From a virus, in IMG/VR virus record IMGVR_UViG_3300017527_000423, positions 1 through 53,524 of that record: a DNA stretch of 53,524 nt; one strand, 5' to 3'. Position numbers and translations under genes: made by a program. The notes beneath the pieces were generated by a model. That model saw nothing but the letters and a program-made list of their open reading frames with translations. It did not search any database and was not told the DNA's origin. Shown one piece after another: positions 6,218 through 46,674 of the stretch. Every line of letters begins with the position of its first letter. Position 1 is the stretch's first letter.

Positions 6218-6301
6218 ATTAACAGGGTACTCAAGAACTCACAGTAGGACAAAATCCACATAATTTCTTTAAGCCCCTAAAATAGTACCAAAGTAATAGC
6301 C
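6218..6301 (+). ncRNA. Repeated intergenic element, copy 1 (putative structured RNA)
   Basis: Core AACAGGGTA (6221-6229) is followed by AAGAACTCACAGTAGGA (6233-6249). The variable GGTACT (6226-6231) has a perfect complement AGTACC at 6284-6289, and GGA-N5-TCC (6247-6257) makes a small hairpin after the core. It shares CCCCTAAAATA with copy 4 and a TAATAGCC end with copy 3. It begins eight bases after the phosphoesterase stop and ends about 60 bases before the first fibre gene. Function unknown: terminator, RNA processing site, riboswitch-like leader or promoter are all possible. Confidence 0.6.
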
Positions 6302-6359
6302 TTAACGCTATTCTTAAGAGATATATAATCCTTTATTTATTTATAAGGATTTTATCTCC

Positions 6360-8162
6360 ATGTCAGTTTTTCTTTTACCATTCTCATCTAAAGGCGGGTT
6401 TTCAATAGGCGAAGAACGAGCTGAGAAATCGATTTTTAAAATCAAAGGAGAAGGCATACCCGAGGCAAGAGTAAATGGTTATCCTGGTTGGGAATATACA
6501 GACACATTAAACGGATTAAAATATATTAAGATTTCGGGTCAAGGCAACAACATTGGGTGGCTTCCTGTAGTTTTAACAAAGTTCTCTCAAGAATTAGATG
6601 CTCAGGGAAATACGATTAACAATATCCCTGATCCAATACTTCCTCATCAAGTAGTTCCTAAGCAATACGTAGATAATCTTGTAGGTATTGTAGAGGATTA
6701 TGTCTCTCATTATAATACTCAAGATGGTACATCTGATGGAGGCATAGAAGTATCTCCGACATCAACTTCTAGAAAGATCTCATCCCCTTCTTCTGAAGGC
6801 AGTCCCTTTAAAATAGGTGATTGGTCCGGAGGCGACTTCCGTCTATGCTATCGTAATAGTACAGTATCTTTTAATAATTCACAACAAGTAAGCTTTGTCA
6901 ATGATTCAACTACTACTGTTGAGGTAAGAGTTCTAGATGCTGATGGAACTTCTGTTATCTCGTCCTTTATTACAGATCCGATATCAGGAATTTATGATTC
7001 TACCTCAGGTTTTATTAGAGTACGTATCATAGAATGGGAGTCGGATTTTTCTAAGTTTAAAGCAAGGATTTTGGTAGATGTAATGCTAAATAATTTATTA
7101 CCTGGTGGAGGCAGATTCTCTATTCAGGTTATTCATTATAATGCAGCTGATGGAGACTTCTCTTATTCTTCGGTTCCCTACTTTTATGATACTGATAATG
7201 TACTTCAGTCTCTTTCAGGAATCTCAATAGATGAGCATGATGTATATTCTTCTAAGTATCTTTCAGGAATAAGATACTATGATAAGGGAGATGACTTCGA
7301 GATTCATATTCCCCTATTAGATGAGATGAATCATCTATCATTTCCAAGGTTCTTTGCTAATTTCAAAACAAACTCTTTCTTTGGCATTTCCGATAGAAGT
7401 CTGGAAGGTTCTGATTTATTCATGTGGTCTGTTCTTTGGAATAACACGAATGCAAGTTTTAATTCCGTAGAGGCAATTTCTCGTAACAATTTTAGATATA
7501 TAGGGGATTCAGCAAGAGCAACAGCTCAGGTAATTGATTGGTCTCCAGGAAGCTCTAAACAATCTCCTCCATTATCGGTATGTATCGATACTTGGAATGC
7601 AGAATCTGACGAACTTAGTGAGTATTTCACTGACGAGTCCTTTAGAACAACTTCCACAGACATTCCTTGGGACTCTTCGGAGGATCTTATCTCATATGAT
7701 GATGCTGCAGGTCTTATGATTCAGAAAGGTAAGCTTCAGATCAGAAATTCTGATTGGACTTCTTATTCACCTGGCACTACTTCTAATCCTGATTATTCTT
7801 CAGTTCCGTCTTCAGGAACATATTATCGGTTTTTCACTGATTTATCATCATCTGTAAGAAACTCAGTTCAGTTTGAGATAGGTGGATTTAACTTACAGGA
7901 TTTAATTAATGAGAGAGTTAAGTTGTGGATTTTAATCCCAGGCAAATGGACTTCTTCTTGTTTTATTCACGGGTCTTCAGAATATGATTTTGGATCATTC
8001 AACGGAGACAATGACCCCATTAGAACTAACGACTCTTCCTCAAATATAATAAGAGCAAGCTTTGGAGTTCTTGGTCTGGATTCATATCATAATTCTTTCC
8101 GAATTCACTTAGAAATTCATGACCCATCAATCAATCCTGATTACATTCGGGTATCATTTTAA
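6360..8162 (+). CDS. Tail fibre or baseplate-wedge-like structural protein (600 aa)
   Basis: Residues 75-105 contain LDAQGNTINNIPDP followed by VVPKQYVDNL, the 'LxxxGNxIxNLxxP...KxYVD' pattern typical of phage tail-fibre proteins at the shaft entry. The rest is rich in Ser, Asp and aromatic residues with no repeats as regular as those of the next two fibres, and looks like a series of beta domains. It is the first gene of the fibre cassette, preceded by TATTTATTTATAAGGAT, where AAGGA gives the ribosome binding site. It is probably a virion adhesin, although an exact position in the tail cannot be assigned. Confidence 0.7.
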   Translation: MSVFLLPFSSKGGFSIGEERAEKSIFKIKGEGIPEARVNGYPGWEYTDTLNGLKYIKISGQGNNIGWLPVVLTKFSQELDAQGNTINNIPDPILPHQVVPKQYVDNLVGIVEDYVSHYNTQDGTSDGGIEVSPTSTSRKISSPSSEGSPFKIGDWSGGDFRLCYRNSTVSFNNSQQVSFVNDSTTTVEVRVLDADGTSVISSFITDPISGIYDSTSGFIRVRIIEWESDFSKFKARILVDVMLNNLLPGGGRFSIQVIHYNAADGDFSYSSVPYFYDTDNVLQSLSGISIDEHDVYSSKYLSGIRYYDKGDDFEIHIPLLDEMNHLSFPRFFANFKTNSFFGISDRSLEGSDLFMWSVLWNNTNASFNSVEAISRNNFRYIGDSARATAQVIDWSPGSSKQSPPLSVCIDTWNAESDELSEYFTDESFRTTSTDIPWDSSEDLISYDDAAGLMIQKGKLQIRNSDWTSYSPGTTSNPDYSSVPSSGTYYRFFTDLSSSVRNSVQFEIGGFNLQDLINERVKLWILIPGKWTSSCFIHGSSEYDFGSFNGDNDPIRTNDSSSNIIRASFGVLGLDSYHNSFRIHLEIHDPSINPDYIRVSF

Positions 8163-8173
8163 AGGATATTATT

Positions 8174-8350
8174 ATGCAAATTTTAGATATAAAAGAAACA
8201 GAACAGGGACGTTTTAAGATAGATGTAAAGGTATCCGATTATACGGATTTATCTGTTTATTTTTCATTAGAACAGTTAATTGCCTTAGAAGCTAGGATAA
8301 AGAAAATAAGATTAATGGCTTCTATCAAAGAGGAAGAAAGCAAAGAGTAA
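8174..8350 (+). CDS. Small hypothetical protein between fibre genes (58 aa)
   Basis: AAAGGA at 8161-8166 precedes this 58-codon frame, which fits exactly between two fibre genes. The sequence is charged: MQILDIKETEQGRFKIDVKV, then a Tyr/Leu stretch and a helical lysine/glutamate tail (LEARIKKIRLMASIKEEESKE). The tail could be a short coiled coil. Small proteins placed among fibre genes are sometimes fibre chaperones, but nothing specific shows this here. Confidence 0.6.
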   Translation: MQILDIKETEQGRFKIDVKVSDYTDLSVYFSLEQLIALEARIKKIRLMASIKEEESKE

Positions 8351-8354
8351 TTAT

Positions 8355-11318
8355 ATGAGTGCATTTCTATCAGAAGAACTACGTAATTTTTCCTTCAAGG
8401 GCTTCCTTGGATTATTCGGATCCGGTAACCGTGATACAGCTCCCGATAACCTTGCGTGGTATGAAGAATTTACAACTAGTGATCTTATAGTAAAACCTAC
8501 TCAAATATGGGCAGATTATCCTTTAATTCCTCCGGCACCTAATCTTACGGTAGCTCAAGTAAATGCAGCATCGAATCCTACTATTATAGAAGATTTAACT
8601 ACAACACCTATTCATCTTACTCCGTCTCCGAATAATAAAGCATTTTTTACTACCTCAACATTTGGTGATCTTACTTCAGTTTTACCCAATTGGATAATGC
8701 CTCAGTTAGTCCCTAGAATAGATCCTCCTTATCAGGGATTGGCATCTATTGGTTACATGGTAAGATTATATAATGGGGATCCTACTTCAGGCGGGACTGA
8801 GATATCTACAACGAAAGACAAAGATGGCTCTCGTGTCGGCTGGTTTATGCATTTCGGAACAGGAGCGATACTAACATCTTCAGCATTTTCAGGGATAATA
8901 GATCCTCAAGATGTATGGCTAACAGGCTTTAGATATATTGGAACATTGGGAACAGGTGTAAGCCCTAACTCCGTCTCAGAAGTAAATGGTAAGACAGGGC
9001 CTATTGTCAACCTTAATACGGATGATATTCCAGAAGGATCAACGAACCTGTATTTTACGGATCAACGAGTCACGGATAGTACTCAAGTACAAGAGAATAC
9101 TACAAAATTATTAGGTATTGAAGAGAATGCAACAGCAGATCAGATCGCCTTAGAAGTTCCATTCACTCCTAATGGTGATTTAGAATCGACAGATGTTCAG
9201 TCTGTTATAATAGAATTAAGAAATGATACTGATTCAAAATTAGATTCAGTTATTTCCGGATTTTCAGGAAGGATCCTAGATCCAGTTCAATCTTTAGTAG
9301 ATTTAAAATCTTTAGACACTACGAATCTTTCAGATTTTCCTGATAAAGTATTGATTAATGTAGAAGATGCGGGAATTTATCGTTTCGACAGGGAGAGCAC
9401 TTCTATAGATAATGGCGAATCGATAATTCAACCAACTACAGGTCCGGGTAGATGGCTTCGAAACACTTCAAGCATTTATGAGCATAATAAGACAACTTTA
9501 ATTCAAGGAGGACTTCCTGATGAGTATAATCACTTATCAAATGCAGAGTTATCTAAATTAGCAGGAATAGAACCTTTCGCTCAGGTTAACCCAACGCCTG
9601 CTGAGATTAAAACTGCATATGAATCAAATCCAGATACAAACGCATTTACCGATTCAGAGAAACTTAAGTTATTTGGAATATCTCCAGGAGCAACCGCTAA
9701 TAGTCCTGATCTTTATTTACTAGATCGATCTAATCATAATGGAACACAGGACACAGATACATTAACGGATGGAACTTTATCTAAAGTATTTACAAATGCG
9801 GATAACGATAAGTTAGATGGAATAGAGCCTGGAGCAGAGGTAAATCCAACAGCATTAGACATTAAAACATTATATGAATCGAACCCTAATACAAACGAGT
9901 TTTCAGATTTAGAGAAAATTAAATTAGGTAATATAGAAGACAACGCAACTGCAGACCAGATAGCATCAGAGGTTCCTTATGATAATTCTTCAGGATTATT
10001 AGCAACTGATGTTCAGTCAGCGATAGACGAAGTAAAGAATCTTGCAGAAAACGGAACAGATGATCAAACAGCGGAGGAAGTTCCATTTAATCCTGATGGA
10101 GATATTGCATCCTCTAATGTTCAGGATGCTTTAGTAGAGGTCCGTGATGATACGGATATAAAACTTAATGCCAAAGCAGAACTCTATCATGAGCATCCAG
10201 CATCAGCAATCGTATCGGGAGAGTTGGCGGACGCAAGAATATCTGAATCAAGTATCTTACAACATGAATCTTCTATCAACCATAACAACTTGGATAATTA
10301 TGACATAGCAGAGCATAGAATTATAGAAGACTCTTCCTCAGATAATACTTCTTTATTATCTTCTGAAGAGATAGATTCCAGAATAGACGTAGCATCTCAA
10401 CAAGCAAGAGCAGCGATTCTAGCACCAGTATTAAACATAGCAACTTTAGTAGTAATTGATACTACCGATGTCCCTGATAAAGTAATTATAAATGTAGAAG
10501 CTAATGGCATTTATCGTTTCGATAAAGAGAGCCTTGCAGCGTTAGACGGCGATAGAGTAATAATCCCTAATTCAGGGATTGGTAGATGGTTTAAAGTAGC
10601 TCCACCAGTGGCTGATCATAATCAAATGTTAAATCTTCAGGGAGGGACTTTAGGAGAGTATTATCATTTATCGTCCACAGAGCTAGCTAAACTTTCGGGA
10701 ATAGAGGATGGAGCAACAGCAGATCTTACCGCACCTGAAGTAAAGAATTTATATGAATCAAATTTGGATACAAATGAATTCTCAGATGCAGAAAAGATAA
10801 AACTCGCAGGAATATCTCCAGGAGCAGATTTTCAAACAGCGGAGGAAGTTCCATTTAATCCTGTATCAGGAATTGTGTCTAATGATGTTCAAGCGGCAAT
10901 AGTTGAGATTAATTCCAAGTCCTTAAACAGAGATTCAATTCAAGATGGTTTAATCGCTGCCAATACTTCTAAGATATCTGCAGACGGGAGTATTTCAGTT
11001 CATTCAGACGTAGAATACCCTGCTCCTCCTGTTGTTGGAGACACTCTTAAGTGGGATGGATCTAAGTTTATTCCGAGCCCTTCTTCCTTAGTAAACTCTT
11101 TAATATTCAATCATGATTTAGTAGGTATTCAGGATGGTGTAAATGTAACGTTTACAACCTCAATAGATTTCATCCTCGGCACTACTCAATTATACATAAA
11201 TGGTCTTCGTCAGAAATTAGGCTCGTCTTATCAGGAGGTAAGTACGTCTACTATAGTACTTACAGGCTTTATCCCTATATCAACAGATGAATTATTAGTA
11301 GATTTCGTGAGACTTTAA
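8355..11318 (+). CDS. Large repeat-containing tail fibre protein (987 aa)
   Basis: After an N-terminal part of about 200 residues comes VSEVNGKTGPIVNLNTDDIP and NLYFTDQRV, a well-known tail-fibre motif. Then come repeated modules of the type GIEENATADQIALEVPF...TDVQSVIIEL, seen at least four times with variation (for example DQTAEEVPFNPDGDIASSNV), and paired modules with SGRxxxxxxxxVLINVEDAGIYRFDRES. The C-terminal 75 residues (TQLYINGLRQ) share a fold pattern with the end of the next fibre (EHVYLNGLLQ). It is probably a trimeric shaft protein with a tip domain. A 32-base exact repeat lies at 10064-10095 and 10832-10863. Confidence 0.8.
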   Translation: MSAFLSEELRNFSFKGFLGLFGSGNRDTAPDNLAWYEEFTTSDLIVKPTQIWADYPLIPPAPNLTVAQVNAASNPTIIEDLTTTPIHLTPSPNNKAFFTTSTFGDLTSVLPNWIMPQLVPRIDPPYQGLASIGYMVRLYNGDPTSGGTEISTTKDKDGSRVGWFMHFGTGAILTSSAFSGIIDPQDVWLTGFRYIGTLGTGVSPNSVSEVNGKTGPIVNLNTDDIPEGSTNLYFTDQRVTDSTQVQENTTKLLGIEENATADQIALEVPFTPNGDLESTDVQSVIIELRNDTDSKLDSVISGFSGRILDPVQSLVDLKSLDTTNLSDFPDKVLINVEDAGIYRFDRESTSIDNGESIIQPTTGPGRWLRNTSSIYEHNKTTLIQGGLPDEYNHLSNAELSKLAGIEPFAQVNPTPAEIKTAYESNPDTNAFTDSEKLKLFGISPGATANSPDLYLLDRSNHNGTQDTDTLTDGTLSKVFTNADNDKLDGIEPGAEVNPTALDIKTLYESNPNTNEFSDLEKIKLGNIEDNATADQIASEVPYDNSSGLLATDVQSAIDEVKNLAENGTDDQTAEEVPFNPDGDIASSNVQDALVEVRDDTDIKLNAKAELYHEHPASAIVSGELADARISESSILQHESSINHNNLDNYDIAEHRIIEDSSSDNTSLLSSEEIDSRIDVASQQARAAILAPVLNIATLVVIDTTDVPDKVIINVEANGIYRFDKESLAALDGDRVIIPNSGIGRWFKVAPPVADHNQMLNLQGGTLGEYYHLSSTELAKLSGIEDGATADLTAPEVKNLYESNLDTNEFSDAEKIKLAGISPGADFQTAEEVPFNPVSGIVSNDVQAAIVEINSKSLNRDSIQDGLIAANTSKISADGSISVHSDVEYPAPPVVGDTLKWDGSKFIPSPSSLVNSLIFNHDLVGIQDGVNVTFTTSIDFILGTTQLYINGLRQKLGSSYQEVSTSTIVLTGFIPISTDELLVDFVRL
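10064..10863 (+). repeat. 32-bp direct repeat pair inside the 987-aa fibre gene
   Basis: An identical 32-base stretch encoding QTAEEVPFNP occurs at 10064-10095 and 10832-10863, in the same frame. Other copies of the module are similar only at protein level, so this pair looks more recent or subject to gene conversion. Confidence 0.7.
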
Positions 11319-11388
11319 AGGTAAAATAACATATTTTTCCTCCTCTTAGTAATTCCTTATTTTATGAATTTAAAAAGAGGATTTTACT

Positions 11389-15827: not shown

Positions 15828-15870
15828 GAGAGGTTCTAGTTTATCATAGAATCTCTCATTTCTCTATCTT
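15828..15870 (+). terminator. Intrinsic terminator after the large fibre gene
   Basis: GAGAGGTTCTA (15828-15838) pairs with TAGAATCTCTC (15847-15857), eleven pairs with one G-U, around an eight-base loop. The T-rich stretch ATTTCTCTATCTTTTTATTTTTG follows. It begins nine bases after the fibre stop and is followed by a TATAAATA box, so transcription probably ends here and restarts. Confidence 0.65.
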
Positions 15871-24264: not shown

Positions 24265-24540
24265 ATGAAAACAAAACCATTTATCTCTGAAAGTGTTGAG
24301 TCTGCCTCTTCTTTAGTAAGAACAAGTATAGACGCTCAAGAGAATATTAATAAAATAATAGGTACTTGTGAGGCTTTAACAAGCCTTTTAAGAGGGTTTT
24401 ATTTTAAAGAAGAGAGATATAGTGAAGACTCTGTTTATGCAAAGGGTGTGAATAAATTAATTAAGGACTTGAATCCTATTATGAGTAAAATATACACTGA
24501 TGTTTATTCAAGGTTAGATGATTTCTCCTTTATAAATTAA
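24265..24540 (+). CDS. Hypothetical protein with MKTKPFISE N-terminus (91 aa)
   Basis: AGGA lies eleven bases before the ATG. The protein starts MKTKPFISESVESASSLVRT, very similar to the start of the Nudix protein at 40887 (MKSRPFISEE) and, more loosely, to the next gene (MQSRPYITYK). The rest is helical and hydrophilic, ending DDFSFIN. In T4, internal head proteins begin MKTYQEFIAE and are cut after an IxE-type site, so ISE here may be a capsid-targeting and cleavage signal. That idea is inference. The stop codon overlaps the start of repeat element copy 2. Confidence 0.6.
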   Translation: MKTKPFISESVESASSLVRTSIDAQENINKIIGTCEALTSLLRGFYFKEERYSEDSVYAKGVNKLIKDLNPIMSKIYTDVYSRLDDFSFIN

Positions 24541-24580
24541 CAGGGTACCTAAGAACTCACAGTAGGAGATTACTTAGGTA
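24539..24580 (+). ncRNA. Repeated intergenic element, copy 2 (putative structured RNA)
   Basis: Core AACAGGGTA (24539-24547) continues into AAGAACTCACAGTAGGA (24551-24567). TACCTAAG (24546-24553) pairs perfectly with CTTAGGTA (24573-24580), and the conserved part lies in the loop. The T-rich AATTATTTTAT follows, so this copy could act as a terminator. The element starts inside the stop codon of the previous gene. This copy is short and reaches the next start within 14 bases. Confidence 0.6.
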
Positions 24581-24593
24581 ATTATTTTATACC

Positions 24594-24890
24594 ATGCAAA
24601 GTAGACCTTATATCACATATAAAACAGCTTTTTTATCTTCTTCTCCCAAGATGTATTTTCGAAAGAACGGATCTTTATGGTCTTTTTATCATATTGACTT
24701 AAATTCTTTAGTATCATTTTTTAAGTTTGATCTAAATGAGTTATCTGATTTAGAGACAGACAAACTAAAGAGCTTTCTATCAGAGAAACATGAGGAGATG
24801 CTCTCTCAATTAATTAAGTATTATGAGTCAGTAGATCCATTATCGAGTGAAGACTTAGAGCTATGGGCAAATAAAATTAAAGAAGTTTAA
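24594..24890 (+). CDS. Hypothetical protein (98 aa)
   Basis: The frame starts MQSRPYITYKTAFLSSSPKM, a looser form of the PFISE-type front seen in two other proteins of the window. No good ribosome binding site is visible; the start lies 14 bases after repeat copy 2, whose AGGA falls 28 bases upstream. The centre is aromatic (LWSFYHIDLNSLVSFFKFDL) and the C-terminus helical and acidic. No family is recognised. It lies three bases before the ligase gene and is probably co-expressed with it. Confidence 0.5.
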   Translation: MQSRPYITYKTAFLSSSPKMYFRKNGSLWSFYHIDLNSLVSFFKFDLNELSDLETDKLKSFLSEKHEEMLSQLIKYYESVDPLSSEDLELWANKIKEV

Positions 24891-24893
24891 ACA

Positions 24894-26501
24894 ATGGCAG
24901 ATTATTTTTCAATTAATGATTTAGAAGAAATTAACGAAGCAGACTTCAAGAGTTTAAAATCAAAATTCAGCTTTAAGCCTTTAAAACAGACGTTTCGTAA
25001 GAAATCAGAATCTAATAGAACTATGGCAGTTGAAGCGTATGGATCTCTTCCAGACAACACTACAATAATGAAATTTACTTCTCCCAATACCGAGGAGCCT
25101 GTAGAATATTATAAAACAGACTTTTCTCCTACGGGACTTCCAGAACCTGTTAAGGTTAAGGAAGATCCGAGAATGACTGCAGAAGATCATGAGATATGGC
25201 AAAAGCAAAATGTTGTTGCTCAGAAGAAAGAGAACGGTATTAGACTAACCTTAATTTACTCTAAGTCAGGTCCCTCTTGGATTACAAGAAGAACTTCTAA
25301 AGTTAATAACATGGTTACCGATAAGACAGGTAACATGAAATGGTTGAAGATTCCTAAAGAGTTAGAAGGATGTCAGTTAGATGGCGAGATAATAGTGGAT
25401 GCTATTATTCCTCCTAATGGTCCTGAGTCTACCTCTTTAGTGAATACTACTACGATATTAAATTGTAAGCCTGAAGAGACTCTCCGAAGAATACGAGAGT
25501 ACGGAATTCAGGCAAAGATTCGTTTTGTAGTTTTTGATTGTATAGCTGTTGCACATCAGAGCATTGTTGATAAGCCTTATAAAGAGAGACTTGCAGCAGC
25601 AACAGCATTAGTGACTGAATGGAATTCTCCGAATGTAGAAGTAATAAAGAGCATTAAGGATGACAAGTTCAAATTTTATACTGAAATTGTAGAGCAGGGC
25701 CTAGAAGGCGTTGTCCTTGTTGACACTGAGTCATCTTATTATGACACGAAATCTAGATATAAGATTAAAAGAGCTTCTACCATTGACGCTTTTATTTTTG
25801 GGTTTATAAAAGGTCAGAAGAAGAATGAGGGAAAGGTTGGTGGAATCAAGCTAGGAGTAACTCTAGAAGGATCAAATAAGAAAGTTTTCTTAGCAAGAGT
25901 AAATGCGGGTACCGATGAAGAAAGAGATGATATAACCTTCAACTTAGAAAAATATGTAGGTAAGTGTTTTGAAATAACTTATCAGGAATTTTCTCAAAGA
26001 GGGTTACAACATCCTAGATTCTTAGAAGGATTGAAACATCCTAGAATGGATAAGAGCCCTGATTCTTGTATCTTAGAAAGAACAATGTGCCCCTCTCATG
26101 TTTGGGATTATTTTGAGAACAATGCTCCAAATATTTCAGATTGGAAGTCTGGAAAATATAGTGAGATTCCTTTTAATACTTCTAATGTTTCCGAAGTTCC
26201 TGAACTTACTTCAGATCCTATTGATACTCCTCTTGAAGTTGTTGAAGAGGTTCAAGAAAGGTTAGATAAGGGTTTAATCCGTATTTTAGGCCAGGCTAAG
26301 AGAACGCAAAATATTAAAAGCGTTCAAAAACGTTTAGAGGCAGCATTGGCAGAGAAGAAAGATAAAGAAGCTGTTATCTGGTCAGCAAGACTTTCTCAGC
26401 TGTCAACAGATTCTTTAACATCTTCGGCAGAATCGTCTTTTGTTGATTTAATTAATAAAGCTTTATCTCTTTCATCTAAATATTTTAAATTAATAGAATA
26501 A
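24894..26501 (+). CDS. ATP-dependent DNA ligase (535 aa)
   Basis: The nucleotidyltransferase motifs are in order: motif I QKKENGIRL with Lys112 as the expected adenylated residue (KENG rather than the usual KxDG), Glu165 in LDGEIIV, FVVFDCIAV (about 211-219), motif IV EGVVLV (271-276) and motif V RYKIKR (288-293). An OB-fold-like stretch follows to about residue 400. A C-terminal extension holds a helical tail (RILGQAKRTQNIKSVQKRLE). The enzyme seals nicks in replication and repair. Asn in place of Asp in motif I is uncommon and worth noting. It neighbours primase and polymerase genes. Confidence 0.85.
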   Translation: MADYFSINDLEEINEADFKSLKSKFSFKPLKQTFRKKSESNRTMAVEAYGSLPDNTTIMKFTSPNTEEPVEYYKTDFSPTGLPEPVKVKEDPRMTAEDHEIWQKQNVVAQKKENGIRLTLIYSKSGPSWITRRTSKVNNMVTDKTGNMKWLKIPKELEGCQLDGEIIVDAIIPPNGPESTSLVNTTTILNCKPEETLRRIREYGIQAKIRFVVFDCIAVAHQSIVDKPYKERLAAATALVTEWNSPNVEVIKSIKDDKFKFYTEIVEQGLEGVVLVDTESSYYDTKSRYKIKRASTIDAFIFGFIKGQKKNEGKVGGIKLGVTLEGSNKKVFLARVNAGTDEERDDITFNLEKYVGKCFEITYQEFSQRGLQHPRFLEGLKHPRMDKSPDSCILERTMCPSHVWDYFENNAPNISDWKSGKYSEIPFNTSNVSEVPELTSDPIDTPLEVVEEVQERLDKGLIRILGQAKRTQNIKSVQKRLEAALAEKKDKEAVIWSARLSQLSTDSLTSSAESSFVDLINKALSLSSKYFKLIE

Positions 26502-29210: not shown

Positions 29211-30425
29211 ATGAATTATTTATCAGCAGACCCTTTAATGATTAGAGCAGACGAGTTAGAGGAGCAGACAGCTGAATTATTTGATCAGATGTCTGAAGAA
29301 GGGGTTCGTATAGATGTTGATAAAGTTAAAAAAGTAAAAGAAGAGTTAAAAGATTTAATCAGGAAAGTCGATCTAGCATTAGCTCCTTTAGGAATCTTAA
29401 ACCCTTCATCTCCGGCTCAGGTAAAGAAATTCATTGTTTTAAAGTTAGAAGAAGATGCAGGTAGACCTTTACCAGCTGAAGTTACTTCAGCTATCAAGAC
29501 AGGGGCTGTTCAGATAAAAGAATACGCTCAAGATTTAAACGTTCCAGAGCTTGCATATGTAGCGGAATACCGATCTTTAAAGAAAGCTTTAGGTGAGGCA
29601 AAGACAATGGAATCTTATGGCAATCGATTTAAGTTTAAATGGAATGTAGATCACGAGCCAACTTCGGGAAGAAAATATTCCAGTCCAAATATTACAAACA
29701 TTACTCCTAAAGTAAGATCTTCTATCGTTCCTGATGAAGGCAATATCTTTGCATATGCTGATTTTAATGCATTACAGGCTATCCTTTTAGCAGATCTAGC
29801 TGGCGAGGACGATATTATAGAAGTCTACAATAGGGCTGAGGATATGTACTTGTATCTTGCTAAAGAAGTATTCTCTAAAGAGAATGTGTCTAAAGAAGAT
29901 AGAAAGAAATTAAAAACGCTATTCCTTGCGAAGTTCTTTGGGTACGGAGTTTCTTCTATAGCAAAAGACTTAAATGTTACAGTTGATGAGGCATATTCCT
30001 TAATAAGGAAAATGGATAAGAGATTCCCAAAAATGAAATCATTTTTTGATAGATTAAAATCTCAGATTGAAACTCAGGGATATACAGAAGCTATTGGAGG
30101 AAGAAGATTAACTCTTAATGATCCTCGAATTGTTGATTACAAGGATTACAAGAAAGTAAATACTTTGATAAATCATGTGGCGCAGGGAGGAGAGACAAGT
30201 ATTCTTTTAGACACTCTTCTTCGTGTAAAGAAAGATTCTTATTTAAGAGATAAGAGACTCGTAGCAACGTTCCATGACGGAATCCTTTTTGAGATTCCTG
30301 ATACTCCAGAAGACAAAGATAAGTTTCTTACAGCAATTAAGAAAGCGATGGGACGTCAGCTTATTAAAGCCAAGCTTCAAATCAAGGTAAAATTCGGACC
30401 GGACTTGGCCTCAGTTCAAAATTAG
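29211..30425 (+). CDS. Family A DNA polymerase, polymerase domain only (404 aa)
   Basis: TSGRKYSSPNITNITPKVRS (151-170) matches the 'TGRLSSxxPNLQNI' line. Motif A is FAYADFNALQA with Asp184. Motif B is KKLKTLFLAKFFGYG (232-246), with Lys and Tyr in the expected places. The QGGETSIL segment (325-332) follows. Motif C is ATFHDGILFEI with Asp356, but Gly357 stands where nearly all relatives have Glu. There is no 3'-5' exonuclease domain, so proofreading must be absent or separate. AGGAG precedes the ATG. It is probably the phage replicative or gap-filling polymerase. Confidence 0.85.
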   Translation: MNYLSADPLMIRADELEEQTAELFDQMSEEGVRIDVDKVKKVKEELKDLIRKVDLALAPLGILNPSSPAQVKKFIVLKLEEDAGRPLPAEVTSAIKTGAVQIKEYAQDLNVPELAYVAEYRSLKKALGEAKTMESYGNRFKFKWNVDHEPTSGRKYSSPNITNITPKVRSSIVPDEGNIFAYADFNALQAILLADLAGEDDIIEVYNRAEDMYLYLAKEVFSKENVSKEDRKKLKTLFLAKFFGYGVSSIAKDLNVTVDEAYSLIRKMDKRFPKMKSFFDRLKSQIETQGYTEAIGGRRLTLNDPRIVDYKDYKKVNTLINHVAQGGETSILLDTLLRVKKDSYLRDKRLVATFHDGILFEIPDTPEDKDKFLTAIKKAMGRQLIKAKLQIKVKFGPDLASVQN

Positions 30426-30674
30426 TATATCTAGGATATACTCACTAATTTATCTAATTAGTTCTAAAGGTGTTTATGTTGATTGTCGTAACAGAGTCAC
30501 TCTTACTAATGATCAACATGCTATTATAACAAAATTCGGTTATTCATATTTTGTTATTCATTCATTTATTGAATAATCATACTCATCCTGAGTTTCTATT
30601 TTTAGTGTTGAATAGAAACTACTATTTGATTTGGTAATTAAATAATTTTAGTTATATGGTATGTAAAGTAATTT

Positions 30675-30812
30675 ATGCATTTTCTTGTAATAGTCTCTAA
30701 TAAACAACTTCCTGAAGCAAAGGAAGTTGTTTATGCTATGCTTAATCTCTCTATTGAGGAAATTTACGCTTGCATCCTACTGAAAGGAGAATTTCTTTAT
30801 TTTCTCCTTTAG
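30675..30812 (+). CDS. Doubtful small ORF (45 aa), possibly frameshifted
   Basis: An ATG frame of 45 codons (MHFLVIVSNKQLPEAKEVVY...) has no good ribosome binding site. It ends at TAG, while a second frame (SIEDIMEEVKGAFVYVYTLE) continues in a related style to a stop just before the gene at 30879. Joined by one frameshift they would make a protein of about 65 residues. The 13-bp and 9-bp hairpins lie inside it. It may be a decayed gene or RNA structure that happens to be open. Confidence 0.3.
   Translation: MHFLVIVSNKQLPEAKEVVYAMLNLSIEEIYACILLKGEFLYFLL
30701..30733 (+). repeat. 13-bp perfect hairpin
   Basis: TAAACAACTTCCT pairs with AGGAAGTTGTTTA around a seven-base loop (GAAGCAA). It is one of the two strongest hairpins in the window. 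No T-run follows, so a function in mRNA stability or processing is as likely as termination. Confidence 0.65.
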
Positions 30813-30878
30813 CATTGAAGATATTATGGAAGAGGTTAAAGGAGCTTTTGTATATGTATATACTCTAGAGGATATCTA

Positions 30879-31070
30879 ATGCCGAAAACTCAGGTAAATA
30901 TATCGCAATTTAAATCTATTTATTCTACGAGAGAAATTAAAGGTGTTTTACATGTACAATTTCTTACTAAGAAGGGGTCTATCTTTCCTAACAAGAATAT
31001 GTTCCTTAATCAGTCACAGCTCGATCAGGAGACCTTTGATTTAGCATTAAAGTTTCATATTAATAATTAA
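30879..31070 (+). CDS. Small hypothetical protein (63 aa)
   Basis: GAGG lies nine bases before the ATG. The protein is basic and compact (MPKTQVNISQFKSIYSTREI, then HVQFLTKKGSIFPNKNMFLN). It ends LKFHINN, and its stop codon overlaps repeat element copy 3. No family is recognised. It follows the hairpin-rich interval and is the last gene before the next module. Confidence 0.5.
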   Translation: MPKTQVNISQFKSIYSTREIKGVLHVQFLTKKGSIFPNKNMFLNQSQLDQETFDLALKFHINN

Positions 31071-31126
31071 CAGGGTATCAGAGAACTCACAGCAGGAGAA
31101 AATCCATGTACTGTTATAATAATAGC
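31067..31126 (+). ncRNA. Repeated intergenic element, copy 3 (putative structured RNA)
   Basis: Core AACAGGGTA (31069-31077) is followed by AGAACTCACAGCAGGA (31082-31097), one base different from the others. GGA-N5-TCC forms the small second hairpin. The outer pairing is not clear here: AACAG/CTGTT (31069-31073 with 31111-31115), or GTATC with GATAT farther on, are options. TATAAT at 31115-31120 and a TAATAGCC end (31119-31126) are shared in style with copies 1 and 4. It begins in the stop codon of the preceding gene. Confidence 0.5.
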
Positions 31127-31173
31127 CTAAGAGGTATATATTTAGATATATTAAACCTATTTTAGGATCTTTT

Positions 31174-31761
31174 ATGTTAGAATTTAAACTACATCCTTTA
31201 GTGTATACTCCGCCAGAGAAGTCCTCTAGAGGACCTAAAACAGCGAATCGTGGTGTTAACAGAAAAGAACGTCTTCGAAGAGATCGTATAGTAGAAGAGA
31301 AATATGTTATGATGCTTAGAGATAACTTCTTCTTTTCAGTACAAAGAGGTCATGATCATGATGCTGTAGGAGACAAAGAGGTAAATACTACTTGGTTATG
31401 GGAACCGGATCCTGATTTAAATTATGATGAAGATCCTAATATCTTTGTTCATATTAGAAGAGTTAGGGGATCATTAGCATTTTCAGTTAAAGGATCTACT
31501 TACAAACCTTTATGCTTTGCTTTATTAAAAGCAGCTCTTGAGTTATGGGACTCCAACATTAAGTTGAAGATATCTGAAGAAGTGAGGAATTTTGAAAAAG
31601 AAGGTTTATATATTCAAGAAGATAAAACATTTAAATATGTGGCCGTGGATAGAGAAACAAGTCAAGTTTTCTTAGCGCCTCAGTCTAGTGATGCGAATTT
31701 TAATCTTCTTGTAAGTAAAAGTAGAAAACAAAATAAAACAAAAGCAAGGAGAGCTCTTTGA
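31174..31761 (+). CDS. Hypothetical protein (195 aa)
   Basis: The protein has a basic N-terminal part (PPEKSSRGPKTANRGVNRKE, then RLRRDRIVEEKY), an acidic middle (EPDPDLNYDEDPNIFVHIRR) and a basic C-terminus (SKSRKQNKTKARRAL). No catalytic motif is seen. Charge alone would allow RNA or DNA binding. It is the first gene after repeat copy 3 and overlaps the HAD gene by four bases. I found no strong ribosome binding site; the nearest is AGGAT at 31163. Confidence 0.5.
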   Translation: MLEFKLHPLVYTPPEKSSRGPKTANRGVNRKERLRRDRIVEEKYVMMLRDNFFFSVQRGHDHDAVGDKEVNTTWLWEPDPDLNYDEDPNIFVHIRRVRGSLAFSVKGSTYKPLCFALLKAALELWDSNIKLKISEEVRNFEKEGLYIQEDKTFKYVAVDRETSQVFLAPQSSDANFNLLVSKSRKQNKTKARRAL

Positions 31762-38002: not shown

Positions 38003-38004
38003 AC

Positions 38005-39410: not shown

Positions 39411-39456
39411 TTAATATCTTTTTATTAAATATCTAATTTATATTATGGGGATTTGT

Positions 39457-40887: not shown

Positions 40888-41462
40888 TGAAGTCAAGACC
40901 CTTTATCTCAGAAGAGCCATCTACTTTAGATAAATATAAACTTGTTTATGAGGGTGATTACGTTCGTGTTCTTGTAGACCCTGTAACTAATTATGAAGTT
41001 ATCGATTCTCCTCCTGGATCTGCAGTACTACCATATTTCTATATTGAAGAAGAGCTTTTCTTTGTTTTAAGAAAAGAATTCAAACCTTTTATAAATAAAC
41101 ACGTTGTAACAATTATTACGGGACGTATAGATGAAGGAGAAGAACCTGAAGAAACAGCTTTGAGAGAGCTTAAGGAAGAAGCAGGTTTTATTGTAACTCC
41201 TGAAGATATTGTGGATTTAGGTCCTATTTCTCTAGGAAAAGAACGTATTTCAATGGAGTATTGTTTCTTAGCCGATTTACAAGGGAACTCTTTTGATGAG
41301 ATCAAGCCACCTACAGATGGGTCTTTCTCTGAAGAGGTAAGTTCGATGTTTACAGTTCCTGCAATGAAGATATTTGATTATCTAGATAGGAACGTTTTTC
41401 AGAGTAGCACGATGCTTTCTGTTTTAGCAAAGGCTATAAGCCACTTTAATCTTCATCGTTAG
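40887..41462 (+). CDS. Nudix hydrolase (191 aa)
   Basis: A complete Nudix box spans residues 79-101: GRIDEGEEPEETALRELKEE and then AGF, with all Glu and Arg positions of GX5EX7REUXEEXGU. Such enzymes cleave nucleoside diphosphates linked to another group, for example ADP-ribose, dinucleoside polyphosphates or capped RNA. The fold around it (VLPYFYIEEELFFVLRKEFK) is that of ADP-ribose pyrophosphatase-like members. The N-terminus MKSRPFISEE is shared with the protein at 24265 and may be a head-targeting tag. The ATG overlaps the sigma-like gene stop by one base. Confidence 0.9.
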   Translation: MKSRPFISEEPSTLDKYKLVYEGDYVRVLVDPVTNYEVIDSPPGSAVLPYFYIEEELFFVLRKEFKPFINKHVVTIITGRIDEGEEPEETALRELKEEAGFIVTPEDIVDLGPISLGKERISMEYCFLADLQGNSFDEIKPPTDGSFSEEVSSMFTVPAMKIFDYLDRNVFQSSTMLSVLAKAISHFNLHR

Positions 41463-41500
41463 TTCTATTTATATCATTATTTAAATATAGGAGATCCACA

Positions 41501-42370
41501 ATGAATAATTTTGAGTCTAAGAAAAAGTATGAAGAGTCTTTAATGAATCTTTTGGAGGACTCTTTAGAAGATTTCTTTCAATCGATACTTTCTCCTGTGA
41601 TATACAACCCGATAGCATCTAAAATTCAAGATGATAAATTCAGTATGGTTTTTAGCTTTGAGAAGATTCTCAAAAATATATTTAAATTTGATTTTGATAT
41701 ATCTTCTGTTTTAGGAAAAGTTAAAGTATCTTATTCCTTTTTTGATGATTCAGGCGAGGTAATGGAGTCCGAAGAAAGGAAATATTCTTCTCAGAATGAT
41801 TTAATTGATGAATACAATATTTTAGCAAAGAGTATTGAAAGAGATTTTAAGAAATACTTAATGAATAAGAAATATATGGATTATGTAGTAACCTCTTTAG
41901 ACGAGTTAGAGAAAGTTAATACGGGAGAAGATGAAAGAGACGAACTTCCGTCTAGATCTTTAAGTGAATTAAAACAACGTGCTGATGAAGTTAAATCTGG
42001 AAAGGCTACAATAGATAAAAAGGATGATATAGAAGAAGAAGAAAGAGTTATTGATAGAAATAAATTTAAAAAAATTTTAATTAATTCTTATAAGAGAAAT
42101 AAATCAGGTAAGGCAGTTAAGATAGTTAACAAGATTTTAGACAATCCGGATAACAGTGATTTAATTAACTCGATTCCTTTTAAAAACAAGGATCAGACAT
42201 CTTACGCTGTTTATTACATTTATGACCGCCTACTAGATATAGATAAGAGTGATAAGGATCAGGTATCATCAACTGTAAAAGATATAGCGGATAGCTTTAG
42301 CGCTGTTCAGTGGATTAAGAATAAAAGTAAAACAACTAAATTAGTTCGACAGGTGCTTAAGTTTGTATAA
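41501..42370 (+). CDS. Hypothetical protein upstream of terminase (289 aa)
   Basis: AGGAG lies before the ATG. The protein has an acidic helical N-terminus (YEESLMNLLEDSLEDFFQSI), a middle domain and a charged linker (KKDDIEEEERVIDRNKF). A basic helical C-terminus follows (KIVNKILDNPDNSDLINSIP, then WIKNKSKTTKLVRQVLKFV). It ends six bases before the terminase large subunit gene. In many phages the small terminase lies here, but I see no helix-turn-helix of that type, so the assignment stays open. Confidence 0.5.
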   Translation: MNNFESKKKYEESLMNLLEDSLEDFFQSILSPVIYNPIASKIQDDKFSMVFSFEKILKNIFKFDFDISSVLGKVKVSYSFFDDSGEVMESEERKYSSQNDLIDEYNILAKSIERDFKKYLMNKKYMDYVVTSLDELEKVNTGEDERDELPSRSLSELKQRADEVKSGKATIDKKDDIEEEERVIDRNKFKKILINSYKRNKSGKAVKIVNKILDNPDNSDLINSIPFKNKDQTSYAVYYIYDRLLDIDKSDKDQVSSTVKDIADSFSAVQWIKNKSKTTKLVRQVLKFV

Positions 42371-42376
42371 TATTTT

Positions 42377-44266
42377 ATGCCTAAGAATAACAATGACTTC
42401 AGCTCGAGCTATTTTAATCACTTAATAGATAATGATGTTAGAAGTCATGTATCAACATCAAAATTAACTTTACATGATTTTATGACTTCTCCGGCTTATG
42501 CCAACTGGAAGTTATATCCTGTTCAAGAAGTAATAGTTAAGATACTTTCTGGGGTAGAGTTAGACAATAAAAATAAGATAGTTAAAATATATGACTATCT
42601 TCTTGAAGACTGTCTGTATGATTTCACAGAAACAGAATTTGTTAAATACGCTTATGATGAAGGTCGTATAGGTTTTAAAGAACAGCCAGATCATATAGGC
42701 GTTCGTTGGTTAATGGCATTAGGTAGACGTTCTTTCAAATCAGCACTCGCAGGCGCAGTTCATTCTTTCCAATTTTTAAAATATATGAATGTAGAAGATC
42801 CTTGGGAATATTATAATATGCGCCCTTCTACTAAAGTATTATCAGGAATATTTTCTACCTCCCTACCTCAGGCAAATATCATCTTTGATGAGGTAATTAG
42901 TTCTTTTAATAGTATCGATACATTTAAGTCATGGAATCCTGATGTAAAGGTGAAAGGTATTTATGTTAAACACCCTAAACATGTTAGATATCTGAAGAAG
43001 AAAGCAAAACCTCATTATGTTATAAAGCCTTTTGCAGCTAATGCTAAGACAGGTCTAGGTTTCTCTTTATTTTGTTTAACAGTAGATGAGATAGGCAACT
43101 TCATAGCAGAGCAGGGAGGAATGTCGGCAGAAGAACTAATAAGGAAGCTATCTCCGACATTATCTACATTCGGTGACGATGCGTTTTGGATGGCAATGTC
43201 TAACGCCACTTCCGATACGGATTGTTACTGGTCTCAATTATGTGATAAGGCTATGGATAATCCAGGAGATCCGTATCAAATTTTCAGATTCCCTTCTTGG
43301 TGGGTTAATCTTAATCCGAAATATGTCCCTGAGAGAAGGAAAGCATTTAAATCAGATCCTGCATCATTTTGGGTAGAATATGGATCCAATTTTGGGGTTG
43401 GCGGTCAAAGATGGCTAGCATCAAGTATAATAAACCTCTCAGAGAAACCTTCAAATATTATTCCAAAACCTTATTACTTTTGTGGTCTGGATTTAGCATT
43501 TACTGGGGATAGCTGCTCCGGAACAGTTCTAGCTCCTTCCAATGACTCGATGCTTGTAGAAATAGAGCATGCCACTCTTAAAGCTGGTGAAGGTGATTAC
43601 AAGGATAAGAAGATAGTCCCTCCTAGAGATTTTGTAGCCATACTAGAAGGATGGCATAGAAAATATAATTTAAAAATGATTATTACAGACCAGCATGAAA
43701 TTATGGGACTGATATCAATGTTGTCCTATCCTGTATTATCCGTTTTACGAGATATTCATTTTACTCAGATTTTAAACGACGTTGAATATAAATTTTTATA
43801 TGATTGGCTTCTTCGTGAAGCGTTTATTCTGAAGAACCCTATACTCCTTGAATCATTGAGAGGTCTTGTAGAGATTAAAAGAAGGGGCAAAGTTCATGTA
43901 ACTGCTGCTTCTGGCAAGCGTGACGACCCTGCTGATTCTTTAGCTAGAGCTCTGCTTGCATTTATAATGTACTGTAGAAAGAATCCAGGATTTTCAAGAA
44001 TATTGAATTATGATTTAGACCAATTTGGGTCGTATGGAACATTTAGTAATGTGTTAACTCAACGCTTAATAAATACTGCAGGTAAGAATTACCAAGAGTC
44101 TAAAACAGATAGGTATCTTGCAGGAATGTCCAGTAGTGAGAAGTTTATGGGAAGTGGGGTGTCTGGAGGAGGTCCTAGAACATCTCATAGCGGTAAGTTT
44201 GGATCTTTTACTAGAGGTAATATGAGAGACAGGTATTTTTCAGGGAATCCAAGGAAACCTATTTAG
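42377..44266 (+). CDS. terL: Terminase large subunit (629 aa)
   Basis: The ATPase part shows a Walker A-like GRRSFKSA (116-123) and Walker B CLTVDEIG with Asp237 and Glu238. WMAMSNATSDTD (about 270-280) lies in the coupling-motif position. The nuclease part has YYFCGLDLAFTGD with Asp372, MIITDQHEI (about 434-442) and KRDDPADSLARA (about 515-526), giving the three acidic positions of an RNase H-fold nuclease. The C-terminus is Gly, Ser and Arg rich. The protein pumps and cuts DNA at the prohead portal. It sits directly before the portal gene, as usual. Confidence 0.9.
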   Translation: MPKNNNDFSSSYFNHLIDNDVRSHVSTSKLTLHDFMTSPAYANWKLYPVQEVIVKILSGVELDNKNKIVKIYDYLLEDCLYDFTETEFVKYAYDEGRIGFKEQPDHIGVRWLMALGRRSFKSALAGAVHSFQFLKYMNVEDPWEYYNMRPSTKVLSGIFSTSLPQANIIFDEVISSFNSIDTFKSWNPDVKVKGIYVKHPKHVRYLKKKAKPHYVIKPFAANAKTGLGFSLFCLTVDEIGNFIAEQGGMSAEELIRKLSPTLSTFGDDAFWMAMSNATSDTDCYWSQLCDKAMDNPGDPYQIFRFPSWWVNLNPKYVPERRKAFKSDPASFWVEYGSNFGVGGQRWLASSIINLSEKPSNIIPKPYYFCGLDLAFTGDSCSGTVLAPSNDSMLVEIEHATLKAGEGDYKDKKIVPPRDFVAILEGWHRKYNLKMIITDQHEIMGLISMLSYPVLSVLRDIHFTQILNDVEYKFLYDWLLREAFILKNPILLESLRGLVEIKRRGKVHVTAASGKRDDPADSLARALLAFIMYCRKNPGFSRILNYDLDQFGSYGTFSNVLTQRLINTAGKNYQESKTDRYLAGMSSSEKFMGSGVSGGGPRTSHSGKFGSFTRGNMRDRYFSGNPRKPI

Positions 44267-44306
44267 GTTGATTATTATTTAATTTATAATAAATAAGGTA
44301 GTTATT

Positions 44307-46349
44307 ATGTCGAATAGTTTATATGGTAATAAAGTAACAAGTAATATTTTCAGAGAAGATTTTATAGAGTCGGCTGTAGGCAAGCTTACATCTTCAGAGG
44401 ATGTTCTTTCTTCCATCATTAATATAGAAGGGGGAGATAAAGAAGCATTTCAGTCTCAAGCAGAGTCAGTGATGAATAGATCTTCTAATGTTTTTGGAAC
44501 CGAGACAGTTATTGGAGGCATCGAGAATGTACCTTTAGATCTTCTTCCATTATTATCGAGAGATATAACTTCTTTCACTGGTAAGGAGAAAAAGAAATTA
44601 GCTCGTATGTTCTATCGTATTGATCCTGTAGTTAGAACGTGTACAGACATAAATACTGATGCCCCTTTATCTAGAATTAAATTAGTACCTCCATCTATTA
44701 AAGATGATGAAGAACTGTCTGAGTATATAAAGAATTTCTTCAATTCTATGATTGACCAAATGAAGTTATTCTCATTTTTTAATGAGATTTTCCATGAACT
44801 TTCCTTGAATAGAGAGATATTTGGTTGGTGCACTTTTAGCGAAGACAATAAGATATGGTCTCATATCAAGTTACTTGAAGATGAGTATGAGCCAGAAGCA
44901 GTTAAAGAAGCAGATGGTTCTATTAGAATTTTTATCAAGATACCTCCTGGTATGGAAGAAGTTTGGGAATCTGAAGTAGCGGACTTAGAAGCGGGTTCAG
45001 AAGAAGCAAAGCTTTATGGAAAGGAGAAAAGAATAGAACTTCCTACAGATCCCTACGAAGGAAGCTTTGCATTTCATATAGACAGAAAACCATCTTCACT
45101 TCATGAAGATGCGGTAGGTCCTATGGACTCTGCATTTCGTTTATTAGTAAGCAAGACATTATTAATTAACGCTTATGAAGCGAAGTTACGAAGGTTATCT
45201 CAACATACTGACATTTATTCAGTTCCAGAAGATCCTGCGATGGTTGATGATTTACAATATAAGTTATGGGTATCACAACATAGTCCTTCAGGAGGACCTA
45301 TTGTCTGTAATTACGAAGTAACTCAGGTTTCTAAGGAACCTGCAATAAACACTTTTGATGTAGCAAAAGATTTAGACTGGATTAATGATAGTCTATTCTT
45401 AAATTTCGGATTGAATAAAACAATAATTCAAGGTGAGGCATCTTATGGAGCAGATAAGATTCCTATGGAGCTTATCAATACTAGATTCTTCTACATGAGA
45501 GAAATCCTTACTACCTTTTGGGTAGATTTCCTAGCAAAGCCTATTGCATTATTTAACGGGTTTTATTTAAAATCTGTTAAGATTGAGCCGGAGTATATTA
45601 GATCTCGGTTGATGAAGGCATACTTTGATAAGGACACTATCATACCAGTGAAGGCTGACATAAAGAAAGATGGTATAGAAGGCGAGGAGATGACTTCTTC
45701 TTCGGTACGGTTACTCCATCCCGAGCCAGAAGAACCTAAAGATGTTGTAGAGAAGTTTTTAGGGGATTATGATTCATACTTTGAGAAATCACCTTATGGT
45801 AAGTTTACCTCCTCTTCTTACAAGAAAGATTTGAGATCAACTCTAATTAGTTCTTTTAACTTTTCTATGTCTAATTCTAAGAGAAGTGTGGGTTATGGTA
45901 AAACGAATAAAGCCTCATTTACTTCATCTAACACTAAGTATGATGGGGTTGAAGGAGAACAGGTAGATATTTATGATCCCTATCTTATATGGTTTATTCC
46001 GCAATTATCATTCAAACGTGTTGCAATTACAGATACGGATGAGGCATTCACTCAATTATTTAACTTATTCTCTCAGTCAGGTCTTCCTTTGAGATACATT
46101 TTAGATGTTTTTAATATTGACAGCGATTCAGCTATAGGAGAGCTAAAGAATGATATGTTCACAGCGAAGGATCCAAAGATATCAGAATTCTTCTCTTCTT
46201 TTTATAGTACGGTAGCTTCTACCTTTGCGGAGAATCCTGCATTTAAGGAGATGTTCTTAGACAAATTTAATTTTGCGGGAGTCAATGCAAAAGATGTTAT
46301 AAGTCCTGAAGACGGCGAAGGTGGGGATGATTTCAGTGAAATAGGATAG
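44307..46349 (+). CDS. Portal protein (680 aa)
   Basis: Portal-type features include LARMFYRIDPVVRTCTDINT (about residues 95-115), the core line FFNSMIDQMKLFSFFNEIFH, and LSLNREIFGWC. A helical stem-like stretch with SEDNKIWSHIKLLED and the segment NFGLNKTIIQGEASYGADKI (about 370-390) also fit. The length and position between terminase and protease genes agree. The protein forms the dodecameric ring through which DNA enters the head. The acidic C-terminus (SPEDGEGGDDFSEIG) is typical of large myovirus portals. An AGG-type ribosome binding site lies upstream. Confidence 0.85.
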   Translation: MSNSLYGNKVTSNIFREDFIESAVGKLTSSEDVLSSIINIEGGDKEAFQSQAESVMNRSSNVFGTETVIGGIENVPLDLLPLLSRDITSFTGKEKKKLARMFYRIDPVVRTCTDINTDAPLSRIKLVPPSIKDDEELSEYIKNFFNSMIDQMKLFSFFNEIFHELSLNREIFGWCTFSEDNKIWSHIKLLEDEYEPEAVKEADGSIRIFIKIPPGMEEVWESEVADLEAGSEEAKLYGKEKRIELPTDPYEGSFAFHIDRKPSSLHEDAVGPMDSAFRLLVSKTLLINAYEAKLRRLSQHTDIYSVPEDPAMVDDLQYKLWVSQHSPSGGPIVCNYEVTQVSKEPAINTFDVAKDLDWINDSLFLNFGLNKTIIQGEASYGADKIPMELINTRFFYMREILTTFWVDFLAKPIALFNGFYLKSVKIEPEYIRSRLMKAYFDKDTIIPVKADIKKDGIEGEEMTSSSVRLLHPEPEEPKDVVEKFLGDYDSYFEKSPYGKFTSSSYKKDLRSTLISSFNFSMSNSKRSVGYGKTNKASFTSSNTKYDGVEGEQVDIYDPYLIWFIPQLSFKRVAITDTDEAFTQLFNLFSQSGLPLRYILDVFNIDSDSAIGELKNDMFTAKDPKISEFFSSFYSTVASTFAENPAFKEMFLDKFNFAGVNAKDVISPEDGEGGDDFSEIG

Positions 46350-46395
46350 GGTGTTATTATTTCTCTTCTACTCCTATATATTTACAGGAGTATTT

Positions 46396-46617
46396 ATGTA
46401 TATTATTGAAATACCTCAAGATCTTAAAAGAGATGATTCTCTTTTAAAAGAGGAAGTTTTAAAATTAAGAAATAAGGTAATGCCTGGGTCTTCTAGACAA
46501 AATTTTAAACTAGTAAATTCTTTAGACCGTCGTGGTTTAGAGTCTCAATTTATTCATTATAAGAGAATATTATTTTACCTGCATCTGTATAAAATTAACA
46601 GGGTATTTAAGAACTGA
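46396..46617 (+). CDS. Small basic hypothetical protein (73 aa)
   Basis: The ATG at 46396 has ACAGGAG upstream; an earlier in-frame start would give a hydrophobic front without a ribosome binding site. The protein is basic and helical (DLKRDDSLLKEEVLKLRNKV, then HYKRILFYLHLYKINRVFKN). The last seven codons and the TGA stop coincide with the conserved core of repeat copy 4, so the end of this gene may have been changed by the element. T4-like phages carry a small gene between portal and protease (gp67/68 head genes); that is a guess by position only. Confidence 0.5.
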   Translation: MYIIEIPQDLKRDDSLLKEEVLKLRNKVMPGSSRQNFKLVNSLDRRGLESQFIHYKRILFYLHLYKINRVFKN

Positions 46618-46674
46618 CAGTAGGACCTTGTCCTCTAAATCCCTCTAACCCCCTAAAATACATATAAAATAGCC
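46596..46674 (+). ncRNA. Repeated intergenic element, copy 4 (putative structured RNA)
   Basis: Core AACAGGGTA (46597-46605) is followed by AAGAACTGACAGTAGGA (46609-46625), with one change from the other copies. GTATTT (46603-46608) pairs with AAATAC (46656-46661), and AGGAC/GTCCT (46622-46634) forms the second small hairpin. CCCCTAAAATA and the AAATAGCC end are shared with copy 1. The first 20 bases also encode the end of the preceding protein. The 60 bases after the element to the next start hold nothing else that I can name. Confidence 0.6.

Follow-up and report, generated by a model that had tools for sequence, protein, structure and literature searches.

An evenly spaced, co-oriented intergenic element in a phage genome of probably about 218 kb, tentatively read as an activator-dependent promoter site

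The window, i.e., the whole stretch of 53,524 nucleotides of the virus record IMGVR_UViG_3300017527_000423, contains four exact occurrences of AACAGGGTA, at 6221, 24539, 31069 and 46597, all on the + strand, with a second motif, AGAACT(C/G)ACAG(T/C)AGGA, located four bases 3' of each. Copy 1 is located 11 nt past the stop codon of the metallophosphoesterase gene 4738-6210, with the next start codon at 6360. Copy 2 overlaps the TAA of the ORF 24265-24540 and is followed on its 3' side by an ORF at 24594 and then by the ATP-dependent DNA ligase gene 24894-26501. Copy 3 has TGTTATAAT downstream at 31112 and the next start codon at 31174, and copy 4 lies between the genes for the portal and the head protease, where the TGA within its variant sequence closes the ORF 46351-46617 and the next start codon is at 46733. 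With at most 3 mismatches allowed, the 16-mer of the second motif has 5 matches in the window versus 0.48 expected, and none of 100 shuffles reaches 5. The four copies with a common sequence, as described in an earlier note on this DNA, are thus genuine and far above chance, and the conserved stretch reported there also exists, although it is longer than first reported, extending from about position -5 to 34 (with position 1 being the first A of AACAGGG).

It is noted that the only other IMG/VR record with the element is IMGVR_UViG_3300017527_000512 (164,540 bp), which is called G001 here. Because the contig ends overlap exactly over 84 and 38 bases (Table 1) and an ORF, 51932-53554, spans the larger join between the window end and the G001 start, the window and G001 are probably one phage genome of about 217.9 kb forming a closed circle, where the circle is deduced from the two contig-end overlaps and is not a finished assembly. 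Circle coordinates are given below as the window position up to 53524 and, beyond that, as the G001 position + 53440.

Table 1. Positions, in the window, of the element copies, their 3' flanks and the related features.
Feature	Position	Strand	Basis or remark
Copy 1, conserved block AAATTAACAGGGTA-CTCA-AGAACTCACAGTAGGACAAAA	6216..6254	+	sequence scan
Copy 2, conserved block	24534..24572	+	sequence scan
Copy 3, conserved block, CAGCAGG variant	31064..31102	+	sequence scan
Copy 4, conserved block, ACTGACAG variant	46592..46630	+	sequence scan
3' flank of copy 1, about positions 35-70	6255..6290	+	-10-like CATAAT (variable) at position 39, then pyrimidine tract, TAAAATA
3' flank of copy 2	24573..24600	+	CTTAGGTA, complementary to the variable part of copy 2 only
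3' flank of copy 3	31103..31135	+	extended -10-like TGTTATAAT
3' flank of copy 4	46631..46707	+	about 115 nt from element start common with copy 86563 of contig _000512, 84% identity
Phage sigma-like protein, 480 aa	39445..40887	+	phrog_351 E 2.6e-10; RpoS chain E 0.001, residues 165-254
Perfect sigma-70 promoter TTGACA-17-TATAAT ahead of tRNA	1537..1565	+	consensus scan
Sigma-70 promoter, perfect	240-268		consensus scan
Sigma-70 promoter, 11/12	1729-1757		consensus scan
End overlap	1..38	.	identical to G001:164503-164540, same orientation
End overlap	53441..53524	.	identical to G001:1-84, same orientation

The remainder of the genome (G001) holds at least 12 further copies, and the circle has 16 copies, 15 of which are intact and one of which is decayed (G001:154332, with one base lost). 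Being paralogues in one genome, the 16 copies are not independent. Mechanical ORF calling on the circle gives 234 forward and 2 reverse ORFs, and all 16 copies are intergenic and on the + (coding) strand, whereas a mobile element of the MITE or REP type would be inserted in both orientations. The element mostly starts 0-20 nt past the stop codon of the upstream gene, with several copies overlapping the stop, and the next ORF start codons are about 43-176 nt downstream (mostly 75-176), preceded in most copies by an SD-like sequence, where some of these assignments of upstream stops and next starts are uncertain owing to the mechanical ORF calling, notably at 24539, 140003, 171737 and 207771. 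Downstream of each intact copy an ORF of at least 60 aa begins within 176 nt, and the modules headed by the elements are of every kind seen, including tail fibres, replication, head, tRNAs and helicase.

Several other features of the genome are also noted. Ahead of copy 3, window 30426-31173 is a stretch of 748 nt without a long ORF, which is unusual for so compact a genome. There are two family A DNA polymerases (window 29211-30425 and L037:9227-11608), one being full, with 793 aa and an exonuclease domain, and the other being polymerase-only, with 404 aa, DFNALQ for the usual DYSQIE and HDG for HDE. Three DNA ligase genes are present (window 24894-26501, L037:17729-19060 and L037:4618-6615), two of the ATP-dependent type and one NAD-dependent. 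L036:16562-19150 encodes an 862-aa PAS-GGDEF-EAL protein (cyclic di-GMP turnover), and L037:13983-16199 an anaerobic ribonucleoside-triphosphate reductase, a gene which suggests that the host may be anaerobic or facultative. In a tRNA-rich region, L038:8118-9710 (G001:88118-89710) encodes a phage Ro60/TROVE protein with a vWA domain, and a Y-RNA-binding protein of this kind would be unusual in a phage. Three related HNH homing-endonuclease-like genes (phrog_3339) are located at L034:7620-9335, L034:14196-15947 and L035:16253-17944, two of which flank a 911-aa protein resembling a virion protein. Moreover, a perfect hairpin enclosing an SD-like sequence is found at five genes (circle 6360, 21235, 34133, 103343 and 174386; for example, ATAATTCCTTATTATTATAAGGAATTAT ahead of 103343), versus 0-1 in shuffled leaders, and two of the five follow elements.

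The near-invariant block reads AAATTAACAGGGTA-N4-AGAACT(C/G)ACAGTAG(G/A)A, where bases 10-13 are free and position 20 is C or G. On the 3' side of position 34 the sequence is variable to about position 44, which is followed, in related groups of copies, by the semi-conserved TTCTCTAAC and then by TAAAATA. The similarity of copy 4 and G001:86563 over about 115 nt (Table 1) indicates that the element and the downstream spacer were duplicated jointly. A boxA/boxB-like antitermination site, with a GAAAA loop and TTCTCTAAC, was considered and rejected, with the loop and stem not being conserved and the order being reversed relative to the lambda nut site.

Beyond what the earlier note described, the copies are regularly spaced. 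Round the circle the copies split an almost entirely one-directional genome into 16 units, and the distances between neighbouring copies are 4.7-22.5 kb, giving a coefficient of variation (CV) of 0.45, as compared with means of 1.11-1.18 for 16 random intergenic sites (P<=5e-5). Compared with random intergenic sites, the smallest gap is also extreme (P = 2e-4), as is the largest (0/20,000). So regular a spacing speaks for the sites being markers of transcription units or of some other organisation on the scale of the genome.

It was proposed in the earlier note that the element is a structured RNA, with compensatory changes in base pairing around a conserved unpaired core. The pairings of the variable bases given there, GGTACT/AGTACC, TACCTAAG/CTTAGGTA and GTATTT/AAATAC, do exist as written, but they are confined to those 3 of the 16 copies: a perfect pairing of at least 6 bases that includes the variable bases is present in 3 of the 4 window copies and in 0 of the 12 others. 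The earlier note itself stated that further copies without the complementary segments would refute the proposal, and all of the added copies (12/12) are of this kind. For the four window copies alone, the variable-base pairing has P=0.015. Swapped flanks give 2.1 variable-base pairings on average versus the 3 observed (P=0.35), shuffled flanks give P=0.14, and in a duplex-energy swap test the own flank of a copy is no better than that of another copy (P=0.30). With the long pairing missing in the added copies and the covariation equal to that of shuffled controls, the compensatory change is not sustained. Neither did two nested structures read from the best-folding copies give covariation better than shuffles, and RNAalifold over the copies predicted no consensus pair. 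The conserved unpaired core is not supported either. The conserved bases are located on the 5' arm rather than in loops, an arrangement suggesting that the element is recognised by its sequence more than by its structure. A second small pairing that was also reported is retained in part, with GGA/TCC or GGT/ACC being present at 27-29/35-37 in 6 of the 16 copies and not in the rest. The statement that the element matches no known RNA holds, since the Rfam comparison found no match for this repeated conserved intergenic element: the covariance models gave only a tRNA in the window and, near the four copies, no credible match at a lax E-value. The element is not a newly proven structured RNA. An important point to note is that four copies hinted at covariation that 16 copies erase, which shows how little complementarity among a few AT-rich paralogous repeats says about RNA structure. 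Two other candidates were also rejected. For stop-codon read-through, another stop is met within a few codons in the copies read past the stop, and for a trans-acting antisense role, the one 11-nt complement, near window 4373-4388, is within chance by rough estimate.

We regard the element as a phage-specific site, recognised by sequence, that heads the 16 units, and most likely as an activator-dependent promoter, or a promoter-proximal activator site, for the host RNA polymerase, a reading that we hold tentatively and at somewhat less than an even chance. Based on this reading, a phage DNA-binding factor, possibly together with a phage sigma-like protein, would bind the conserved block, the polymerase would use the weakly conserved -10-like hexamer located about 38-44 bases into the element, and transcription would start near the pyrimidine/CTAAC stretch, at approximately position 50, and would proceed into the operon downstream. 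With this geometry, the conserved block would span about -50 to -17, like a MotA box in place of the -35. The promoter reading is consistent with the conserved block being invariant while the flanks are variable and with all 16 copies being on the coding strand, as well as with the even spacing and with the distance to the next start codons, which mostly have an SD-like sequence. It is also consistent with the -10-like hexamers at starts 38-42, within the most variable stretch (38-44), which exceed the intergenic pool (P<1/3000), the same excess being modest when compared with within-segment shuffles (P=0.015-0.02). There is a stronger second -10-like peak at 56-60, which owes its strength to the shared ancestry of the copies, and a start from it would be too far downstream for the ribosome site of copy 82110. 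On the other hand, the block has no classical -35 or strong -10, the imperfect inverted repeat would be unneeded by a plain promoter, the genome yielded no phage RNA polymerase, and two copies hold an independent promoter-like TGTTATAAT, at EL+43 and EL+76, which would be redundant.

The sigma-like protein listed in Table 1 is, as judged from its profile matches, a candidate partner for the promoter recognition. A multi-subunit phage RNA polymerase was sought by family matches, of which there were none, and by a catalytic DxDGD-type motif, which no convincing protein carries. The sigma-70 promoters show that there is a separate class for the host polymerase in this genome: no TTGACA-17-TATAAT is located in or next to the element, and the matches of at least 11/12 lie at 240, 1537, 1729, 47605, 57211 and 111974. 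Note also that TGTTATAAT occurs at seven intergenic sites (circle 31112, 118003, 120615, 129640, 137045, 183604 and 204508), five of which are away from the elements; it is mostly located 51-71 nt ahead of an ORF and looks like a separate class of extended -10 promoter. The T4-type late promoter octamer TATAAATA was rejected as a fixed part of the element, as it is present, at EL+67/68, in two copies only and has no genome-wide strand bias. If the element is a master promoter or operon-head site, the transcription units of a 218-kb phage could be read directly from its positions, and it would also serve as a compact, orthogonal regulatory part.

The main rival to the promoter reading, which we consider possible although on the whole unlikely, is an RNA leader or processing element. 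In this scenario, the element would be transcribed from upstream and its imperfect hairpin would be cleaved, or would bind a protein, so that the 3' end of one operon message is parted from the 5' end of the next, where the hairpin would consist of a GGGU/ACCC base, AGAA/UUCU, an inner GA..U stem and, in the strongest copies, a GAAAA-type loop. This is consistent with the location directly past stop codons, with the strong folds in copies 82110, 120539 (G001:67099, with the longest stem), 201445 and 46597 and with the change of GGA/TCC to GGT/ACC in copy 120539. It is also consistent with the excess complementarity of the 3' flank (35-60) to the conserved block, which is seen over shuffled flanks (Fisher about 1e-6) and against real intergenic flanks of the genome (6e-5) and is absent in offset controls, where these P values are inflated by the shared ancestry of the copies. 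However, the complementarity is not specific to RNA, because folding of the opposite strand gives a signal of the same strength (5e-5 and 3e-7), and the signal, a weak imperfect inverted repeat, is described as well by a DNA dyad as by an RNA hairpin. Moreover, copies 54881, 59624, 158242 and 179077 have essentially no stem, and the lack of an RNAalifold consensus, the covariation at the level of shuffles and the placement of the conserved bases outside the loops, as discussed above, also speak against a leader hairpin.

A further, rather improbable scenario is that of a new class of control element, in which a one-directional genome of 218 kb is cut into evenly sized units by means of a phage factor, an unusually long bipartite site and a leader hairpin, with no counterpart among the known transcription programmes of phages. 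In kind, the element belongs with the oriented, repeated intergenic control elements that are already known.

We consider it quite unlikely that the element is a non-canonical terminator at the operon ends, formed by an AT-rich hairpin and a pyrimidine tract or dependent on a factor, and followed by a separate promoter. The setting is the same as that of intrinsic terminators elsewhere in the genome, for example at window 15828-15857, 9 nt past a stop, and the promoter-like TGTTATAAT is located downstream of two copies. Nevertheless, an intrinsic terminator needs no near-invariant block of 34 nt, and a scan for a G+C-rich stem followed by a U-run, with loops under 10 nt, found such terminators at 0 of the 16 copies. 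In addition, the apparent ribosome site begins about +63 to +84 from the element start in copies 82110, 171737, 201445 and 207771; in at least these four it is thus too near for a terminator with a separate promoter to fit well, while an internal promoter or a processed leader fits. There is similarly little likelihood of a DNA site for replication, segregation or packaging (e.g., a primase, partition or nucleoid-anchoring site), oriented with the genome and kept outside the genes. The even spacing, the constant orientation and the presence of the inverted repeat on both strands would fit such a site, but every intact copy is followed closely by an ORF, the element is duplicated together with its downstream spacer (46597 and G001:86563), and no link to any replication or packaging gene is present. 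Finally, a promoter of a T7-type single-subunit RNA polymerase, which is suggested by the resemblance of ACTCAC..TAGGA to the T7 promoter from -10 to +2 (one ungapped register agrees with the T7 consensus at 11/15 core bases), is very improbable, and the likeness to the T7 core is most likely a coincidence, because the best match of shuffled versions reaches 11/15 in about 2% of cases and because Pfam, HMM and profile searches of the apparently closed 218-kb genome gave no single-subunit RNA polymerase. The three large proteins without an assigned function that were inspected look like virion proteins.

No relatives of the element sequence were found in IMG/VR, GTDB genome contigs or GenBank phages, and queries with the portal and terminase proteins (IMG/VR, GTDB) gave no relative. 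The lack of a relative of the sequence in any collection searched places the phage in an unsampled lineage with its own transcription organisation. Outside this genome, the pattern matches in L025, L026, L028 and L029 are coding-sequence coincidences, as is that in the L120/L073 family, where GGTACACCAGAACTCACAGTAGGAG is inside an apparently conserved reading frame.

Among the known systems, the T7-type late promoters resemble the element in that both are long and near-invariant, lie between genes in one orientation and number 16-17, and partly also in the core, ACTCAC..TAGG, but they differ from it in having a cognate single-subunit RNA polymerase, and the conservation here extends 14 bp further upstream. 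The RNase III processing hairpins of T7 are imperfect hairpins located between the early genes, just past stop codons, a setting similar to that of the putative imperfect hairpins here, right after stops between operons. By contrast, those hairpins have no near-invariant primary sequence of 34 nt, and four of the copies here have no stem. In the T4 middle promoters the MotA box replaces the -35, with the activator being bound there and the host RNA polymerase using a weak -10. The arrangement that we propose for the phage, with an activator-bound block for the -35 and a weak -10 downstream, would be of this type, although the MotA box is about 9 bp, as compared with a block of 34-39 bp in two parts here. 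The stoperators of mycobacteriophages are short repeated sites dispersed over the phage genome. The 17-bp repeats of Cluster O are dispersed perfect palindromes that are partly within genes and not strictly oriented (PMC4351075), whereas the element is asymmetric, always oriented and always between genes.

The class I intergenic repeats of the halovirus HF2, of 58 bp and in 7 copies, consist of blocks of identical bases with variable positions, and experiments have shown that they are promoters in which transcription starts at a fixed place within the repeat (PMC8707807). Like them, the element is present as several near-identical, intergenic, co-oriented copies upstream of genes, with invariant blocks and variable positions, and in both cases the repeats occur nowhere else in their genome. 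HF2, however, is a virus of archaea whose repeat contains a TATA box and BRE, and the phage block has no such box; its 7 copies compare with 16 evenly spaced ones here, and promoter activity is experimental there and proposed from sequence here. On this comparison, the HF2 class I repeats may be taken as the closest precedent for the element in kind rather than as a relative of it.
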